Below, in pieces: positions 2,783 to 24,938 of a stretch of 26,324 bases of DNA. Position 1 is the first letter of the stretch. The number at the start of each line of letters is the position of its first letter. The notes below the pieces were generated by a model. The model saw nothing but the letters and a program-made list of their open reading frames with translations. It was not told the DNA's origin and did not search any database. Source of the stretch: a virus; IMG/VR virus record IMGVR_UViG_3300046804_000297, positions 1 through 26,324 of that record, one strand, 5' to 3'. The translations under genes were made by a program, and so were the position numbers.

Positions 2783-3138
2783 ATAGAATCTCACCCGCTG
2801 GCAACGACTCTCTTCCGAACGGACATGAGACCCGTCAGCGGGTGAGTGCCATATCCGTCTTTCCAACCTTTCACGGATATGTGTGTGCGGTATCCTTCCT
2901 TTCGGGTACCCATAGTTGGTGGCGTTGAGCGCTGTTGCGCGTCCGTCCTCTCTCTAGCGTGATTGTTGTTCCGCCACCAACGCTCAACCCTTGACAGCAA
3001 TTCATCTTGATGATGTACCCTAATTTCCAAGGTTCGCAAAACACCTTACCTGTAAAAGTGGGGTCAGTCCGATACTGACAACATTGAAGTTCCGAAGCCA
3101 TCGGTACAAGAGATGACCGCTCCGACCATCGGAGGAAT
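2783..3138 (+). ncRNA. Non-coding stretch with nested hairpins; candidate structured RNA
   Basis: No convincing gene is present on either strand over about 350 bp. It has at least four tandem stems. CTCACCCGCTG 2790-2800 pairs perfectly with 2836-2846 (11 bp). CATATCCGT 2850-2858 pairs with 2873-2881 (9 bp). GGTATCC 2889-2895 pairs with GGGTACC 2904-2910 (7 bp, one G-U). GTTGGTGGCG 2915-2924 pairs with 2972-2981 (10 bp) and encloses GCGC-tgtt-GCGC. GTTGAGCG 2924-2931 can alternatively pair with CGCTCAAC 2981-2988. A smaller stem, GTCAGT/ACTGAC, is at 3063-3079. None has a U-run, so they are not simple terminators. Strand is assumed from the neighbours. It could be a phage small RNA, a leader of the lysozyme-like gene or a packaging/replication site; I cannot tell which. 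Confidence 0.45.
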
Positions 3139-3594
3139 ATGCGATTCTATGAAAAACTCAAAAATCCCGTTCCACACATTTACTTCATACTGGGAATAAT
3201 TCTTTTCAATCCGCTACATATTCCACCTGATACTCCCGCAGTCGCGGAAGAACCAGTAATTATGAAGCCCGTGCTTATTGAGCGCGACCCTGATATTGCT
3301 CGAGCGTATGCTAAAAAACAGATGCCAGCATGGGGTTGGAAAACAGATGCTCAATGGCAATGCCTCGATTCGCTATGGACTAAAGAATCAAACTGGCGAC
3401 CCGATGCCTATAACAAAAAAGCCGTTTATCAAGATGGCGAAAAACTTCACGCTGGTGGTATCCCACAGATTCTCGGATTAGACCCGAGCATTTCAGTTGA
3501 GGAGCAGATTCAACGCGGATTCATTTATATCGAGTCTCGTTATTCCGACCCTTGCTCGGCGTGGCGCTTTTGGAGTCGCAATTTTTGGTACTAG
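3139..3594 (+). CDS. Membrane-anchored lysozyme/transglycosylase-like protein
   Basis: 151 residues. Residues 12-27 (PHIYFILGIILFNPL) are a short hydrophobic signal-anchor; a Pro/Glu linker follows to about residue 50. The C-terminal 95 residues resemble SLT-type lysozyme domains of actinobacterial and phage proteins: ARAYAKKQMPAWGW, then LWTKESNWRPDA with E83 at the place of the catalytic glutamate, then GIPQILG and a C-terminal Trp/Tyr helix. The likely activity is cleavage of peptidoglycan glycan strands at the outer face of the membrane, for lysis or wall opening. The domain is near the minimum length for this fold. GGAGG is only three bases before the ATG. The long structured leader upstream may control it. 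Confidence 0.72.
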   Translation: MRFYEKLKNPVPHIYFILGIILFNPLHIPPDTPAVAEEPVIMKPVLIERDPDIARAYAKKQMPAWGWKTDAQWQCLDSLWTKESNWRPDAYNKKAVYQDGEKLHAGGIPQILGLDPSISVEEQIQRGFIYIESRYSDPCSAWRFWSRNFWY

Positions 3595-6945: not shown

Positions 6946-7950
6946 ATGATTCATTTTGCGAAAGCAGAGCGTCCTCGTCGAGTACCACTTACACCCGAAG
7001 AGCAAGTTCTTGCCCGCACCTTATTTGATGCTATTCAAAGAGCAACAGATAAAATCAGCGTAAAGGATTTAGAGCGTTTAGTTCGGCGCCTCGACCCTGA
7101 GACTTTGAATCGGTTATTAGCCTCTATCACTATTGCTAATCAAAAGAAGATTGAACAAGCGCTCATTTCTGCGATTGATATTGGTGGCAATGAAGCCATC
7201 CAACAGATTTCAAACATTGCTCCTAAGTTAGCCTTACCAGCCTTCTTGCCTAGCAAAGTTCAAATTACAAATAAAAAGCCAATGGCTAACATGACATTCA
7301 CACAAGTACCAATGTGGGCGCAACCAAAACCACCCAAGGTTGAATTCACGATGTCATTCAATAAAACTAATCCAAACTCTTTAGCCTTTGCTGAACGCCG
7401 TGCTGGAGAACTTGTTACTGCGATTGATGAGATGACTCGCAACGCAATCAGACAAACAATCATTGAAGCCTTCAACGACCAAATTGATTACAGAGCAACA
7501 GCGCGACGAATCAAGAATGTTGTTGGACTTCATCCTCAATGGGCTAAGGCAGTTACAACTTTCGAGAAGAAAGAGTATGCCCGCCTTATTCGTATGGGAC
7601 TCAAAGAAGAATCAGCAAGAGCAAAAGCCATGGAGCGAGCATCTCGTTATTCAGATTCACTCAAGAGCAAAAGAGCAACCATGATTGCTCGTACAGAGAT
7701 TCAGATTGCTCAGAACGAGGGACGCCAAGAGGGATGGAATCAAGCGGCAAAAGAAGGTTATGTAGATGCTGAAGCACAAAAGATGTGGGTTATTGCTCAA
7801 GATGAACGCACTTGCCCTATCTGTGTGGATTTAGATGGAGAGGTAGTTCCTTGGAATGGAACTTTTTCCAATGGTGATGAAACCCCAGGCAGAGTACATC
7901 CTCATTGCCGTTGTACCATGGTGATTCTTCCACCCGATAGGCGGCGATAA
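6946..7950 (+). CDS. MuF-like minor head (head morphogenesis) protein
   Basis: 334 residues. The C-terminal third has the phage Mu F-like head morphogenesis domain: ARTEIQIAQNEGRQEGW with R249 and E251, DERTCPICVDLDGEVVP with C290 and C293, and GRVHPHCRCTMVILPP with H318, H320, C321 and C323. These Cys/His pairs probably hold a zinc. The N-terminal part is helical, with a mobile Pro/Lys segment around 120-145. MuF proteins are minor capsid components next to the portal and are sometimes carried into the cell; in many phages they are fused to toxin domains. Here it has no extra domain; instead separate tagged cargo proteins follow. Its stop overlaps the next ATG (TAATG). Confidence 0.88.
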   Translation: MIHFAKAERPRRVPLTPEEQVLARTLFDAIQRATDKISVKDLERLVRRLDPETLNRLLASITIANQKKIEQALISAIDIGGNEAIQQISNIAPKLALPAFLPSKVQITNKKPMANMTFTQVPMWAQPKPPKVEFTMSFNKTNPNSLAFAERRAGELVTAIDEMTRNAIRQTIIEAFNDQIDYRATARRIKNVVGLHPQWAKAVTTFEKKEYARLIRMGLKEESARAKAMERASRYSDSLKSKRATMIARTEIQIAQNEGRQEGWNQAAKEGYVDAEAQKMWVIAQDERTCPICVDLDGEVVPWNGTFSNGDETPGRVHPHCRCTMVILPPDRRR

Positions 7951-8777
7951 TGAGTATCACTATTTCATTACCAGTTGGGTATAAACCAGTTTTCAAACAC
8001 GGAGACCACGACCAGTCTACACATGGTTCTTGGGCTACGGGCAAAGCCGAAGAAGCAAAGCGTTTGGCTCCCGATAAAACAGAAGAATTGTCGTCTTATT
8101 TTGGCAAAGATATAACTACTTACAAAAATTCTGAGGCATATAAAGAAATTCAAAAAAGAGAAGAAAAAGGTAGAAGCGAGAAACGAGCATGGGAAAACTA
8201 TGTTTTAGAAATTGTTGCTGAAAAGCAAGGTTTTGCTGAAACACCAAAAGTCGTTACTGCTGATGAAATGGACAAATTACAAGCGGACGGATGGACCATT
8301 GCTTATCGTGGAATTCAAGACTACAGCCATGGCGGAGATAACAATATAAATTATACTTCTGAACAATTAGCAGAAGAGTTTAGAACAGGTAATTATCATG
8401 CTGGTTCAGGAGTAGACGGTGATGGAATTTATCTTACAACGGATTATGAAGTTGCTCGAAGTTATGCCGACGATTGGAAAACTGGGAAACAAGGAACCGT
8501 TTTGAAGGTAGCAATACCGCCAAACAGCACAATGGACGCAAATGAATTCAATGAGATTTTGAAAGAGAATAGAGAAATGGTACGCTCAGGTAAACAACCT
8601 TTTTGGGGTGCCGATGATTTAGGTGTATTAGCCGCATCACAAGGACACCGAGGGGCTGAACATCTACGAAATATGCGTGTGATAAAAAATGGTGGAAGAA
8701 CTGATTTCAATAGAATTGCTCCTGTTTTTGTAATTTGGGATAGGTCAATGCTGGCTGTACAAGAGGCAGATAAATGA
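7950..8777 (+). CDS. HGDHDQ-tagged ADP-ribosyltransferase-like cargo protein
   Basis: 275 residues. A short N-terminus (GYKPVF) leads directly into the 16-residue tag at residues 16-31. Residues about 105-270 look like an ADP-ribosyltransferase fold: TIAYRG with R120, then GDGIYLTT at 157-164 as the Ser/Thr strand motif followed by a helix AVARSYA-like (YEVARSYADDW), VLKVAIPP, and a late LGVLAASQGHRGAEHL helix-strand with a possible catalytic Glu. The exact catalytic glutamate is unsure, so activity is inferred from the fold only. It lies directly behind the MuF gene, coupled by TAATG, and its stop overlaps the next gene (ATGA). A protein packaged in the head and acting early in infection, like T4 Alt, is the natural comparison. 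Confidence 0.65.
   Translation: MSITISLPVGYKPVFKHGDHDQSTHGSWATGKAEEAKRLAPDKTEELSSYFGKDITTYKNSEAYKEIQKREEKGRSEKRAWENYVLEIVAEKQGFAETPKVVTADEMDKLQADGWTIAYRGIQDYSHGGDNNINYTSEQLAEEFRTGNYHAGSGVDGDGIYLTTDYEVARSYADDWKTGKQGTVLKVAIPPNSTMDANEFNEILKENREMVRSGKQPFWGADDLGVLAASQGHRGAEHLRNMRVIKNGGRTDFNRIAPVFVIWDRSMLAVQEADK
7995..8042 (+). repeat. HGDHDQ tag, copy 1
   Basis: Encodes KHGDHDQSTHGSWATG, residues 16-31 of the ADP-ribosyltransferase-like protein. It is preceded by GYKPVF, which recurs as GLKPVL before copy 3. Codons differ from the other copies at most third positions, so the peptide rather than the DNA is what is kept. Confidence 0.9.
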
Positions 8778-10714
8778 AAGCATTGACCGCTGATGAATCA
8801 CGCCAATTAGCAAAAAAATTACGAGGATTATCGCCAATTCAAAAAGCAGATTTTTACTTTTTCACACTTATAGAAGAACAAGACCCTTTCGAATTTTTAC
8901 AAAAATTAGATATGAAAAAACATGGTGACCATGACCAGTCAAGCCACGGTAATTGGGCGCATGGCATTGAAGTAGCCCCTGAAGTAGTCCGCTCGACGCT
9001 GGATAAGGTCAAGGAGAATGGCGGTCTCTCGGTCAATCTCAAGGATGGCTCTGAGCCTACAAAGGGCTTTATGGTTGCCAAGGGCAAGAAGTTCGCGGCG
9101 ATAGTCAAGGCTGACGAATTTTTCGATGAGGCTAAGGGCGCTGAGATTCTCTCCTCCTACATGAAACAGCATAAGGCAGAGTTCAATAATTCGAATAACT
9201 ACCTCGGTTTATGGCACAATACCGAGGATGGACAGGTTTATCTTGATGTCTCCGAAAACATCCAAGATGAAGCGGAGGCTACAAGCCGTGGGCGCGAGCG
9301 CGACCAAATCTCAATTTGGGATGTAGCAAACTTCAAAGAAATTCCGACAGGAGGAACAGGTGGCATCGAAAAAACTCGAGGCGGTTCAACTTCCCGATAT
9401 ATCGAAGATGACCGACGAAGAGATAGAGAACTACGCCAAAGAGATTTGGGCGAAGTTAGCAAAGCCTTCTCAGCAACAAAAGTAATTTATTTTGATTATG
9501 GGTTGAAGCCCGTACTCAAACACGGCGAACACGACCAATCCGAACACGGAAACTGGGCGCGTGGTTACACAGACGAGGAAAGAACTCGCATGGAAGCCAT
9601 GAAAGACCGCGGACCATCTATTGATGATTTGAATAATGTCATGTCTGAACCAAGAGAAATTGATAAAGATGAAATAAAACTTTTGATTGAAAACGATAGT
9701 GATTTATATTCTCAAGCAACTGAAGATATTGATTCGAGAGTCGCAGAACGCCTTGCGGCGCTTCAAGCAGAGTTTCCAAATCATGAATATAGTGAACAAG
9801 AAAAAGCAACAATCTATGAAGATGTTCAAAGAGAAATGATTGAAGGCTACGCTGAACTTTATCAAGGTGATTTAGAAGAACGAATTCGTATTGAAGAGGG
9901 CAGTTATTCTGAAAATGACCCTCAAGAATTACAACCATATTTTGATGAGGTTTATGGAATTTCACACACGGGTAAAAATCCTGATGGTGATGAACATACT
10001 TTGACTTCAACAATCCATGATGTTTCTCGAGACGGTAACAATCTTTATATCAGAGGAACTATTACGAACGAAGATGGCGAAGAAGTAGGCGAAATTGCCC
10101 GCCGATTCTTTCAGAAAAATGGCGTTTGGAATGTTGAGCATGAAGTCCTTGCGATTATGGATGATGACTACAAAGGCACGGGTTTTGGTCAAGAACTAAT
10201 CAAACAATCTGAGGCTTGGTATACGGCTAAAGGATTTGGCTTTATTGAAGTTGGAACGGCTTGGGATGGCGCTCGCCATTGGGCTAGAGCAGGTTATGAT
10301 TTCCGTCCCGATAAATTAGAACAAAACATTTCTGAGATAGCAACAAACGCTGGAATGTTTTCCAATATGTTCAATCCTGATACACCCGCGGGAAAGCAAT
10401 TTGATTCTTTGATGGGTCGCGCAACAAATGATTACAAACGCGATGAATATGGCAGACCAACTTGGACTTCTATCAAAGATATAAAATCAGACGACTTTCC
10501 AATTCCTGCTGATTTCGCCAATATCGGATACACAAAGGGGGCAAGGGATTGGGCTGGAAAACAACTGATGGACGGATTACGAATGAAATATGTCAAGGTT
10601 CTCACGGCTGAAGGACAGAAACTTCTTGAGGGACCAATCGACCTTGACGGAGACGGATTGGTTTATGACGGTACAGCCCGTGAGAAACCAGCGCCGAGTC
10701 GCGGAAATAAATAA
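8774..10714 (+). CDS. Double-tagged two-module cargo protein with GNAT-like domain
   Basis: 646 residues in two tag-plus-domain modules. Module 1: tag at residues 49-64, then a domain at about 75-185 (NGGLSVNLKDG, GFMVAKGKKFAAIV, NNYLGLWHNTEDGQVYLDVS, RDQISIWDV). I recall that domain from other phage proteins but know no function. Module 2: a new start-like segment YFDYGLKPVL, tag at 249-264, a long acidic helical region (about 270-390), then a GNAT-like acetyltransferase region (about 400-510) with LYIRGTI, VLAIMDDDYKGTGFGQELIKQSEAWYTAKGFGFIEVG and WARAGYDF. YKGTGFG at 466-472 fits the acetyl-CoA pyrophosphate loop. The C-terminus ends with DLDGDGLVYDG, an EF-hand-like Asp/Gly loop. It looks like a fusion of two former separate genes. 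The acceptor substrate is unknown. Confidence 0.7.
   Translation: MKALTADESRQLAKKLRGLSPIQKADFYFFTLIEEQDPFEFLQKLDMKKHGDHDQSSHGNWAHGIEVAPEVVRSTLDKVKENGGLSVNLKDGSEPTKGFMVAKGKKFAAIVKADEFFDEAKGAEILSSYMKQHKAEFNNSNNYLGLWHNTEDGQVYLDVSENIQDEAEATSRGRERDQISIWDVANFKEIPTGGTGGIEKTRGGSTSRYIEDDRRRDRELRQRDLGEVSKAFSATKVIYFDYGLKPVLKHGEHDQSEHGNWARGYTDEERTRMEAMKDRGPSIDDLNNVMSEPREIDKDEIKLLIENDSDLYSQATEDIDSRVAERLAALQAEFPNHEYSEQEKATIYEDVQREMIEGYAELYQGDLEERIRIEEGSYSENDPQELQPYFDEVYGISHTGKNPDGDEHTLTSTIHDVSRDGNNLYIRGTITNEDGEEVGEIARRFFQKNGVWNVEHEVLAIMDDDYKGTGFGQELIKQSEAWYTAKGFGFIEVGTAWDGARHWARAGYDFRPDKLEQNISEIATNAGMFSNMFNPDTPAGKQFDSLMGRATNDYKRDEYGRPTWTSIKDIKSDDFPIPADFANIGYTKGARDWAGKQLMDGLRMKYVKVLTAEGQKLLEGPIDLDGDGLVYDGTAREKPAPSRGNK
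8918..8965 (+). repeat. HGDHDQ tag, copy 2
   Basis: Encodes KHGDHDQSSHGNWAHG, residues 49-64 of the two-module protein, before the domain of unknown function. Confidence 0.9.
9518..9565 (+). repeat. HGDHDQ tag, copy 3
   Basis: Encodes KHGEHDQSEHGNWARG, residues 249-264 of the two-module protein, before the acidic helical region and GNAT-like domain. GLKPVL stands in front, as GYKPVF does before copy 1. Confidence 0.9.
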
Positions 10715-10721
10715 ACTGGGG

Positions 10722-10727
10722 TATAAT
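10722..10727 (+). promoter_or_regulatory. -10 element TATAAT six bases before an ATG start
   Basis: TATAAT is followed by six bases and then ATG 10734, with no ribosome site between. TAAACT at 10712-10717, followed by GGGG, is a second -10-like candidate in the same place. No clear -35. Confidence 0.45.
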
Positions 10728-10733
10728 TAGATT

Positions 10734-10898
10734 ATGACAAAGAGACGAGAGAGACTCAAAGCCATCCAAGAGGCTTATGCTAATTGGGAGCAAGGGGTCA
10801 GATTTACTTCCGAGACTGGCGCATCCGATGAGGATGAATCACGAATTATGGACGAAGTTTCAACCATCCTTGAGGGAAATAAACCCCAGTCAGAATAA
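10734..10898 (+). CDS. Small charged hypothetical protein, likely leaderless
   Basis: 54 residues, beginning MTKRRERLKAIQEAYANWEQ. A basic helical first half is followed by an acidic second half (SDEDESRIMDEVSTILEGN). It fills the gap between two large cargo genes. There is no Shine-Dalgarno; a perfect TATAAT lies six bases before the ATG. Size, charge layout and the helix pattern would suit a small regulator or adaptor, but no family is recognised. Confidence 0.55.
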   Translation: MTKRRERLKAIQEAYANWEQGVRFTSETGASDEDESRIMDEVSTILEGNKPQSE

Positions 10899-10905
10899 CA
10901 TCCGC

Positions 10906-10911
10906 TATTCT
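10906..10911 (+). promoter_or_regulatory. -10-like element six bases before the 10918 start
   Basis: TATTCT is followed by six bases and then ATG 10918; there is no ribosome site between. The spacing equals that at 3977, 5334 and 10722. Confidence 0.35.
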
Positions 10912-10917
10912 TAGTTC

Positions 10918-12555
10918 ATGGCGGATATTGCTCCTAAACTCATTCATCTAAGCGCTGAGAAACTCCTAGCGCTACACGATAATGTCCATAAGTCCACAAA
11001 CCCAACGCCCGCTGAGATTGAAGTCCACCACACAGTTCTCAATGAGATGGCTCGTCGAAAGATGGAGCGTCCAAGCGATGATTGGGATAAATACGAGATT
11101 CTAATTGATTCAATCGACAATGTAGACCTGACCTCTATTGGCGGATTACCAGCCGAGGCAGTCTTGGAAGTTATCAAATCAACAGGCGAGACCGAAGCCA
11201 ATATCAAAACATTCTTGACCGTAGACGGTTATCAAATGCGGATTGAACCAGTTGAAAAACGGATTCAAGAAGAAGATGGAAAATGGGTTGTTTACAACGA
11301 AGAGGGAACTCGTCGTTTTGGAAGTTACGATACAAAAGATGAGGCAGAGGCACGGCTTCGTCAGATACACGCTTTTAGAAAAGCCGAGGATGGATACACG
11401 CCTCCTCAAGCAGTTCGCACAGCGGCGCAACGAGCGATTGAATGGATTGATGCTGGCATGGCTGGCGGAGGATTTACAAGAACAGGAAGAACAAGAGCGG
11501 GTCAATTAGCCCGAGGCGAAAGCGTTTCAATAGAAACTTTGAAGCGTATGAAATCTTTTTTTTCTCGACACGAAGTAGACAAAAGAGCAGTTGGATTTAG
11601 CAGAGGAGAAAAAGGTTTTCCTTCCGCTGGTCGTGTTGCTTGGGATGCTTGGGGTGGAGATGCTGGATTCGCTTGGGCGGAAGCGATGGTGGAGCGATAT
11701 GAAAACGAAGTCAAAAAGCATGGCGACCATGACCAATCAGAGCATGGAAATTGGGCTACTGGAGGTGGTGGCGGAAAAGATGGCTCGTCGTCTCGTCCCC
11801 GTATGGCAGATGATGTCAAACCTGAACCTGATAGAACACCCGCCGCGGTCAAACAAGCAGAACGACTCCGTAGAGACGCTGAAGCAGTTGAACCAGCGGT
11901 AACAAGTTTGATGGAAGGTATTGCGAAAACCATTGGAGCAGATTTCGCAGTTCTTGATGGCAAGAGTTCTCTTGAACAAAGATTGAAGTCCACAGATTCA
12001 CTTGCTCGCAAAATTGATGCCGATGCTGAAAAAGACCACGGTGGAGATAGAGAGAAAGCGGCTAACGCAATTTCTGATGCTGTTCGATATACACTCAATA
12101 TCGATGATAACAGTTACGCAGATGGTGTAGAAAAAACTGTTGGCGCTTTAGAAAAAACAGGTTGGAAAGTTGAATCAGTCAAAAACTTTTGGCAACAAGG
12201 CGACCCTTACGATGGAACTAATATCAAGTTGAGCAAAGATGGTGTCAAGGTTGAATTACAACTTCACACACCTCAATCCCACAAAGTCAAAGAAGTAGAC
12301 CTTCATGATGATTACGAGAAATATCGTGTTTCAACAGATAACGCCGAGCGTCGAAGATTATGGGATGGCATGGTTGAAAAGGCTAAGGCAATTCCACGCC
12401 CTGCCAATATGGGCAAACTTTTGACCCTTGGAACCCTCGTAGTTCAAACTTTCGAGACGGCTCAACAGGCTGGATTGACTAAATCAACTGGGGTTGATAT
12501 TATGTGGACAATAACGAGAGGAGGCGTAGCCGTATGCGGTATTTCGCTAAATTAG
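10918..12555 (+). CDS. HGDHDQ-tagged multidomain cargo protein with RelA/SpoT-like domain
   Basis: 545 residues. In order: a helical N-terminal region (1-105); a small domain with GKWVVYNEEGTRRFGSYDTKDEAEARLRQI (about 121-150), a form common in phage head-region proteins; a third domain (about 160-262) with YTPPQAVRTAAQRAIEWI, RGESVSIETLKRMKSFFSRHEVDK and AWDAWGGDAGFAWA, also known to me only as a phage domain; the tag (267-282) with a Gly-rich linker; then about 310-515 a RelA/SpoT-like nucleotidyltransferase region. The last has LEQRLKSTDSLARKI from 352, SDAVRYTLNI, YDGTNIKL from 431 and VKVELQLHTPQS from 443, matching the order of the synthetase core (basic helix, strand with DxxR-like site, Y-G-N turn, E-x-Q-x-H/R-T strand). 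(p)ppGpp synthesis or RNA/nucleotide pyrophosphorylation is possible; activity is not proven. The 3' end holds the next promoter. Confidence 0.68.
   Translation: MADIAPKLIHLSAEKLLALHDNVHKSTNPTPAEIEVHHTVLNEMARRKMERPSDDWDKYEILIDSIDNVDLTSIGGLPAEAVLEVIKSTGETEANIKTFLTVDGYQMRIEPVEKRIQEEDGKWVVYNEEGTRRFGSYDTKDEAEARLRQIHAFRKAEDGYTPPQAVRTAAQRAIEWIDAGMAGGGFTRTGRTRAGQLARGESVSIETLKRMKSFFSRHEVDKRAVGFSRGEKGFPSAGRVAWDAWGGDAGFAWAEAMVERYENEVKKHGDHDQSEHGNWATGGGGGKDGSSSRPRMADDVKPEPDRTPAAVKQAERLRRDAEAVEPAVTSLMEGIAKTIGADFAVLDGKSSLEQRLKSTDSLARKIDADAEKDHGGDREKAANAISDAVRYTLNIDDNSYADGVEKTVGALEKTGWKVESVKNFWQQGDPYDGTNIKLSKDGVKVELQLHTPQSHKVKEVDLHDDYEKYRVSTDNAERRRLWDGMVEKAKAIPRPANMGKLLTLGTLVVQTFETAQQAGLTKSTGVDIMWTITRGGVAVCGISLN
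11716..11763 (+). repeat. HGDHDQ tag, copy 4
   Basis: Encodes KHGDHDQSEHGNWATG, residues 267-282 of the multidomain protein, followed by a Gly-rich linker and the RelA/SpoT-like region. Confidence 0.9.
12475..12503 (+). promoter_or_regulatory. Putative promoter for protease-scaffold-capsid genes
   Basis: TTGACT at 12475-12480 and TATTAT at 12498-12503 are spaced by 17 bases with TGA as an extended -10. It lies inside the 3' end of the cargo gene, and the strong ribosome site GAGAGGAGG at 12516-12524 follows. Confidence 0.5.
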
Positions 12556-24768: not shown

Positions 24769-24938
24769 ATCAGGAGCCAAAGGCTCCGCAAGAGAGAGTG
24801 GCAGACCCTTATGGCAGAAACGCAACAACCGACGAATTCCAGCGTTGTTGGAAATGCGACAGGCTCCTCTTCGAAAGCGCAACGCGCCCGTGGAGTATCC
24901 GATGTCCAAGATGTAAGTCCAAAAATAAGTCAGGATGA
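24750..24938 (+). CDS. Com-like small zinc-finger protein
   Basis: 62 residues. The C-terminal 30 have CWKCDRLLFESATRPWSIRCPRCKSKNKSG: two CxxC knuckles, the second in the form I-R-C-P-R-C-K, as in Mu Com-type zinc fingers. Mu Com is a small RNA-binding protein that activates translation of mom; whether this copy binds RNA is unknown. It starts inside the end of the previous gene and shares its last 128 bp with the next gene in another frame. The zinc finger is encoded in that shared part, so the match is unlikely to be chance. Confidence 0.62.
   Translation: MSSENVNQEPKAPQERVADPYGRNATTDEFQRCWKCDRLLFESATRPWSIRCPRCKSKNKSG

Follow-up and report, generated by a model that had tools for sequence, protein, structure and literature searches.

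Two conserved structured RNA elements ahead of an endolysin gene in uncultured viruses, and their possible roles in translational control

Introduction

Translational riboswitches and protein-binding leaders sequester the Shine-Dalgarno (SD) sequence within the 5' UTR, where a junction closed by its P1 helix competes with a hairpin that hides the SD. The 6C RNA and the C-rich-loop small RNAs of Actinobacteria expose pyrimidine-rich hairpin loops. In the icaR message of Staphylococcus aureus, a UCCCCUG motif in the 3' UTR pairs with the message's own SD (PMC3868564). Structured RNAs are also carried by phages: the manA and wcaG motifs are leader candidates associated with metabolic genes in cyanophages and marine metagenomes (PMC2864571), and RNA-based control has been proposed for PAK_P4as15, an antisense RNA at the endolysin gene of Pseudomonas phage PAK_P4 (PMC12197685, a review).

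Here we describe a 356-base stretch (positions 2783-3138) of a 26,324-base virus record, the whole of which we call the window. The stretch bears two RNA elements, E1 (2889-2981) and E2 (about 3028-3138), whose structures are well supported and which, within the literature searched and Rfam, are undescribed; that search returned no paper describing the E2 leader or the E1 hairpin. We propose that the stretch is a boundary of two transcription units, with E1 serving the upstream unit and E2 leading the downstream one, and we judge this whole explanation, both mechanisms included, as probable as its opposite.

Results

The locus and its genome

The gene preceding the stretch (2369-2782, + strand) matches phrog_22149. 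Among GenBank phages only Caulobacter phage Seuss matches this gene, and only partially (52%); its host is odd given the otherwise actinobacterial-looking phage. A promoter-like TTGAAT-17-TATACT lies 5' of it (2315-2343, + strand), found by a promoter scan that yielded 10 such sites against 7.3 expected in shuffles. The gene that follows the stretch (3139-3594, + strand), which a first-pass annotation had called lysozyme-like, is endolysin/transglycosylase-like by PHROG, domain and phage matches: it matches phrog_15428 together with transglycosylase PHROGs, its product stands at about 33% to Streptomyces phage endolysins, and an aggregation-promoting-factor C-terminal domain is present in all 14 aligned members of its family. 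Further along the genome, an HGDHDQS-HG-WA motif recurs in three adjacent proteins (ORFs 7950, 8774 and 10918; window 7950-12555), twice in the product of 8774.

The portal and major head proteins are closest to those of Arthrobacter phages (58% and 57% identity), and a WhiB-family transcription factor gene (PF02467, 4203-4523) adjoins the gene for the single-strand-binding protein. From these matches the host is likely actinobacterial, and the carriers of E1 and E2 are probably a group of uncultured viruses that infect actinobacteria.

In agreement with the first-pass annotation, the stretch is non-coding, with no plausible gene spanning 2783-3138, and it contains no tRNA or tmRNA. Nor does it belong to a recognised RNA family: Rfam 15 gave 0 matches in the window at the gathering threshold, and at E <= 5 only a sub-threshold STnc390 on the opposite strand (20.4 bits vs 50 required); five relatives were likewise free of Rfam matches. 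The suspicion that its stems exceed chance is borne out by the RNA fold: its energy is -121.1 kcal/mol, shuffles average -99.7 (sd 5.4, z -3.9), and 0 of 100 go as low.

Conservation of E1 and E2 in relatives

Scans with the flanking proteins gave 15 and 36 loci, most of which retain two conserved blocks, E1 and E2, in the intergenic stretch; the most distant upstream-gene relatives (L047-L051) do not, and two loci (L014 and L044) are cut. The E1-loop pattern found 91 stretches, and among the distinct ones listed the second block follows 125-203 bases on in all but two, of which one is unrelated (L138) and the other lies where the contig ends (L067). The E2 pattern found at least 119 stretches, some of them by chance (e.g. 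L180, L183 and L196). An E1 match is present at 175 of 181 scored E2 places, among which loci overlap. Of the remaining six, three start too near the contig end (L150, L168 and L197), two are the same contig without E1 (L038/L167) and one has a truncated E1 (L178). In L038/L167 E1 is deleted together with the promoter-like element that precedes E2, and here as in L178 E2 is kept; these losses may be real or may be assembly errors.

Loci picked by the endolysin gene alone, the best 80 of at least 568 relatives and overlapping the contigs used for building the models, carry E2 in 80/80 cases and E1 in 78/80; in the other two (L215 and L269) the contig edge lies 41 and 69 bases from the start of E2. 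Both elements are single-copy in 15/15 long records (36-71 kb), in which no other gene was found behind the same leader, a second E1 row in one of them (G003) being no further copy but a weak match to the opposite strand at that very position. In one contig (L060, shared with L027 and L268) the E1 hairpin is partly duplicated in tandem, the incomplete second copy (2159-2244) lying 68 bases past the first. Outside phages, neither the E1-loop pattern nor the E2 pattern is matched exactly in the genome contigs. INPHARED DNA contains no match to the region, nor did either covariance model give a hit around two distant endolysins of Streptomyces phages or near the SSB and portal genes of Arthrobacter phage Ottawa.

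Three alignments were used: A1, all 83 distinct E2 extractions; A2, 71 of the 88 distinct E1 extractions, the 17 excluded being near-copies and the mis-cut L027 and L152; and A3, 25 chosen E1 rows, which exclude the L144-type lineage, whose P3 was misaligned by MAFFT. Model R2 still recovers four records that lie outside the A3 training set, G009, G013, G014 and G015, with scores of 67-72 bits. Since the rows are related, the counts drawn from them are not independent.

Structure and strand of the two elements

E1 forms a hairpin in whose loop the sequence GUCCGUCCUCUCUC hardly varies. Its main hairpin (2915-2981, + strand) is built of P1 (2915-2924/2972-2981) and P3 (2934-2940/2957-2963), with compensatory changes, and carries the apical loop GTCCGTCCTCTCTCTA (2941-2956), the most conserved part of the element (conservation 0.95 for the loop, 0.86 for the stems and 0.72 for internal parts). 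A further stem, S3, precedes it: GGTATCC (2889-2895) with GGGTACC (2904-2910), 7 bp on the + strand with one G-U. In the 25 chosen rows, S3, P1 and P3 together are paired in 96.5% of cells, with 10 pairs doubly changed, against 36-46% when the partner is slid; S3 by itself (GGTAYC.../GGGTACC) is paired in 93% of cells and has one-sided changes only. A candidate promoter within S3 (TAYNNT) was dropped because L156, L186 and L193 have another stem there and the hexamer is absent.

E2, a part of the stretch that the first-pass annotation had not marked, lies directly 5' of the endolysin start codon (+ strand) and forms a conserved, covarying three-way junction. Common to the 83 distinct sequences are the helices P1 (3057-3061/3117-3121), P2 (3063-3068/3074-3079) and P3 (3089-3095/3101-3107) around the junction, and a 5'-terminal hairpin, H0 (AAGGT.../ACCTT, arms 3029-3033 and 3043-3047). 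Pairing holds in 94.2% of 1833 cells (87.1 in shuffles) and falls to 24-43% when the partner is slid; 14 of 23 pairs are doubly changed, with 147 doubly changed cells vs 41 in shuffles. H0 is weaker than P1-P3, with 78% of cells paired and its outermost pair in 20/83. The central P1 pair is C-G in 48 sequences, U-A in 33 and U-G in 2. When the pairs are mapped on an 82-row tree of the endolysin gene, the two sides of this pair (35/100) must have changed at least 8 and 6 times, those of the P2 pair 42/52 at least 13 and 13 times, and those of the P3 pair 71/81 at least 8 and 8 times. Such repeated changes argue that the covariation is not one inherited event; recombination could inflate the change counts. 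RNAalifold offers an alternative, a CCU/AGG pairing of the 5' hairpin with the SD; none of its pairs is doubly changed, and we did not take it up. Kissing of the P2 and P3 loops, searched by eye only, was unsupported.

The reverse strand of the stretch also folds well (z -3.6), and the strand was therefore settled from the asymmetry of G-U and A-C cells in relatives. E1 has 46 G-U vs 1 A-C cells. In E2 the counts are 31 and 12, all 12 A-C cells falling at the terminal P1 pair, without which they are 31 vs 0. This excess of G-U places both RNAs on the + strand.

The E1 loop and the Shine-Dalgarno sequences of upstream genes

The E1 loop is complementary to GAGAGAGGA(C)-type SDs of upstream genes. 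Its best complement among the 37 gene starts of the window is the SD of the adjacent upstream gene, GAGAGGAGGAC (2356-2366): calculated energies are -19.7 kcal/mol for start 2369, -18.7 for 1265, -18.0 for 24811 and -13.4 for 459, against -9.2 for the endolysin site and -16.3 at the 1% level of random window 30-mers. Start 24811 (window 24787-24816) is distant from E1.

Across the loci, with genes called by a crude longest-ORF method, energies of -14 or lower occur at 59% of first upstream genes (n=63), 39% of second (59), 37% of third (54) and 28% of fourth (40), falling to 6% further up (34). The corresponding downstream values are 0% (n=36), 0% (56), 5% (59) and 3% (61), and 9% for later genes (177); on the minus strand the value is 10% (n=225). 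Three loop-complementary 8-mers at the position of the ribosome-binding site were counted 39, 53 and 21 times upstream, 3, 0 and 3 times downstream and 11, 11 and 0 times on the minus strand (39, 3 and 11 being the counts of GAGAGAGG); AAGGAGGA, GAAGGAGG and AAAGGAGG are rarer before upstream starts, at 7, 5 and 5. In the phages of the loci counted, GAGAGAGG(A)-form SDs outnumber the AAGGAGG type. The loop pairs with GAGAGAGGAC at a calculated -17.6, compared with -10.2 for the anti-SD tail; for AAGGAGGA the order is reversed (loop -8.1, tail -10.7). Not all of the 50 distinct pairs of loop and upstream ribosome-binding site are strong: 9 fall short of -11 kcal/mol, and 2 fall short of -7.

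This pattern suggests a role for E1 as an anti-SD repressor of upstream genes, a proposal to which we give an even chance. Mechanistically, the message of the upstream gene would carry E1 at its 3' end or release it by cleavage, and the E1 hairpin would present the nearly invariant pyrimidine loop, which resembles the 16S anti-SD tail. As a perfect complement of GAGAGAGGA-type SDs, the loop would pair with upstream sites and lower their translation. E1 and the upstream gene are on the same strand, with no U-tract terminator listed between them.

The strongest competitor, which we hold to be only somewhat less probable, reads the complementarity as a by-product of purine-rich SDs meeting a pyrimidine loop that is kept for another reason, such as a protein or Rho. 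Loop and target show no co-variation among lineages: real pairs average -14.60 and swapped ones -14.42, with 279 of 2000 swaps as good (40 of the 50 pairs used), in a test of low power given that the loops are nearly identical. Upstream genes generally carry stronger SDs than downstream ones, and minus-strand genes share the motif, so that a phage-wide SD preference may explain part of the complementarity. At matched SD strength, however, the gap narrows yet upstream genes still lead among strong sites, with 58% vs 27% downstream and 47% on the minus strand, and with 49% vs 17% and 23%; in the weaker class from -9 to -7 the minus strand (27%) equals upstream (23%), with downstream at 7%. Composition-matched permuted loops, too, fare worse on upstream genes, where 3/200 are as good as the real one, and less clearly so elsewhere (23/200 downstream, 15/200 minus).

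E2 as a candidate translational switch

Ahead of E2 lies a promoter-like element kept in relatives, TTGACA-19-TACCCT (2991-3021, + strand), which the promoter scan did not list because its spacing exceeds the 16-18 scanned. The hexamer reads TACCNT in 81/83 rows and TATCCT in 1/83. TTGACA stands at exactly 19 nt in 58 of 82 scored rows and a TG one base 5' of the hexamer in 39 of 82, and both are missing only from L038 (1/82), in which this part has been deleted; where either the TTGACA box or the extended -10 is lacking, the other is thus nearly always present. A distance of 6-12 nt (7 nt in 58 rows) separates the end of the hexamer from GGTTCGC, which predicts a message start at H0. The promoter-like element thereby points to E2 being transcribed as the 5' UTR of the endolysin gene.

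The 3' arm of P1 runs into a second hairpin, CTCCG/CGGAG (3120-3124/3130-3134, + strand), which overlaps P1 by two bases and sequesters the SD. In it GGAGG pairs with CUCC, and the P1 3' arm ends on the first two bases of this CUCC. The two C that lie outside P1 and pair with the SD are unused by P1, and are kept in 165/166 cells. GGAGG is fixed, which puts the SD hairpin beyond a covariation test. Calculated energies favour P2 and P3 together with the SD hairpin over a closed P1 with a free SD in 83/83 sequences, by a mean of 4.8 kcal/mol, and P1 has a mean probability of 0.03 in single-sequence folds. The three inner P1 pairs next to the end pair are nonetheless kept in 247/249 cells, and in 12 of the 83 sequences one pair is lost in both P1 and the SD hairpin.

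A helix that is kept by compensation, is unstable alone and rivals a hairpin hiding the SD resembles a triggered ON-switch, and we infer from the calculated competition that E2 is a likely translational ON-switch, at a confidence that we put midway between belief and doubt. E2 would be transcribed from its own promoter just past E1 as the endolysin 5' UTR and, in its default fold, CUCC would hide GGAGG. A putative trigger (a ligand, a protein or an RNA) would stabilise the three-way junction so that P1 closes, taking two bases off the hiding hairpin and exposing the SD, and the lysis protein would be made late.

A structured leader with no switch, which would bind a phage or host protein, or set a constant low endolysin translation and protect the message through its 5'-terminal hairpin, is the less probable reading, at perhaps one chance in three. 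In its favour, the loci chosen by gene alone (the best 80 of at least 568) all show E2 ahead of the same class of gene, each genome has a single copy, and E2 resembles no known riboswitch class in Rfam; a static structure, however, hardly accounts for a covarying closing helix that is unstable alone and overlaps an SD hairpin.

A possible upstream boundary and the remaining stems

A different function for E1 is also conceivable but rather unlikely: it could terminate transcription of the upstream unit or mark the unit's boundary, its loop being a processing or protein-binding site. E1 does lie directly 5' of the promoter-like element, and the two stems ahead of it resemble post-stop-codon hairpins with pyrimidine loops. 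Against this, the scan lists no U-tract terminator (a G+C-rich hairpin followed by a T-tract) anywhere in 2783-3138, and a nearly invariant 14-nt loop is unneeded for termination, whereas the stems vary freely.

The first-pass annotation had described four tandem stems, of 11, 9, 10 and 7 bp, and direct reading and a program place all of them in the sequence. Stem 1 pairs CTCACCCGCTG (2790-2800) with CAGCGGGTGAG (2836-2846) in a hairpin without a U-tract; stem 2 pairs CATATCCGT (2850-2858) with ACGGATATG (2873-2881) around the loop CTTTCCAACCTTTC; the 7-bp stem is S3 of E1 and the 10-bp stem, GTTGGTGGCG/CGCCACCAAC (2915-2924/2972-2981), is P1 of E1, all on the + strand. The covariance that it proposed to look for in relatives is found in the 10-bp stem, whose ninth pair is C-G in 37, G-C in 22, A-U in 7 and G-U in 5 of 71 aligned relatives. 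The sequences of stems 1 and 2 are not kept. Unrelated hairpins take their place in relatives, often with pyrimidine loops (e.g. ACCTTTC, CTTCTT), and stems 1 and 2 are hence not part of one conserved fold; 93 of 94 distinct regions have at least one hairpin under a script rule that reports only stem 2 in the window. Three loci (L043, L045 and L046) have an extra insert of about 95 bases between the upstream gene and stem 1, closed by TTTGATGG/CCATCAAA, which is absent from the other relatives read and, in L046, has no Rfam match.

The same annotation had read the 10-bp stem and an 8-bp pairing, GTTGAGCG/CGCTCAAC (2924-2931/2981-2988, + strand), as the two states of a possible switch. The two do overlap by one base on each side (2924 and 2981), and both are perfect in the window. 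In the 71 relatives, however, GTTGGTGGCG/CGCCACCAAC is paired in 708/710 cells, with compensatory changes, against 247/537 for GTTGAGCG/CGCTCAAC, of which three of the eight pairs are present in at most 17% of rows; the 8-bp pairing is a peculiarity of the window sequence, and a functional two-state pairing or pseudoknot of these arms, refuted as a conserved feature, is very improbable. What stands of that interpretation is a structured RNA region with compensatory changes, and the conserved pair of exclusive helices sits elsewhere, in the leader, between P1 (3057-3061/3117-3121) and the SD hairpin (3120-3124/3130-3134).

Discussion

Lysis-protein timing sets phage burst size; control of this step by a leader that many phages keep ahead of one endolysin family would offer a direct and testable case. 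E1, if our reading of its loop is true, would add a phage-borne, conserved case of anti-SD control from the 3' end, for which icaR is the precedent we found, and E1 and E2, with their covariance models, would be new RNA families even if their mechanisms differ from those proposed. Going further, the two could form an RNA-only timer, in which E1, released once the upstream block has been read, mimics the anti-SD with perfect rather than G-U pairing and shuts the block off, and E2, a new riboswitch class, holds endolysin translation off until a late-infection signal; we regard this combined scheme as speculative and improbable.

E2 is like the SD-sequestering leaders in its predicted 5' UTR position, its three-way junction and a closing P1 set, by calculation, against a hairpin that hides the SD, and differs from known riboswitch leaders in matching no Rfam class and in having been found only before one phage endolysin family. 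E1 shares pyrimidine-rich loops with 6C RNA but has a different fold and CU rather than C6 loops, is phage-borne and has no Rfam match. No sequence relative was found among icaR, manA/wcaG and PAK_P4as15.

The likeness of E1 to icaR lies in a pyrimidine motif, in the 3' UTR, that pairs with the SD of the gene upstream (PMC3868564). Complementarity to an upstream SD is found here as well (-19.7 kcal/mol for the window gene; 59% of 63 distinct nearest upstream sites at -14 or lower), and a concerted change of loop and target, which we added to the comparison, is not seen (279/2000 swaps as good, at low power with nearly identical loops). In contrast to icaR, the E1 motif sits in the loop of a conserved, covarying phage hairpin with several possible upstream targets and is proposed from sequence; we claim no sequence relation between the two. 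With manA and wcaG, E1 and E2 have in common that they are phage-borne structured RNAs, and they differ in matching no Rfam family (PMC2864571). PAK_P4as15, finally, is an antisense transcript (PMC12197685), whereas E2 would be a cis leader on the sense strand; both are proposed to control an endolysin.
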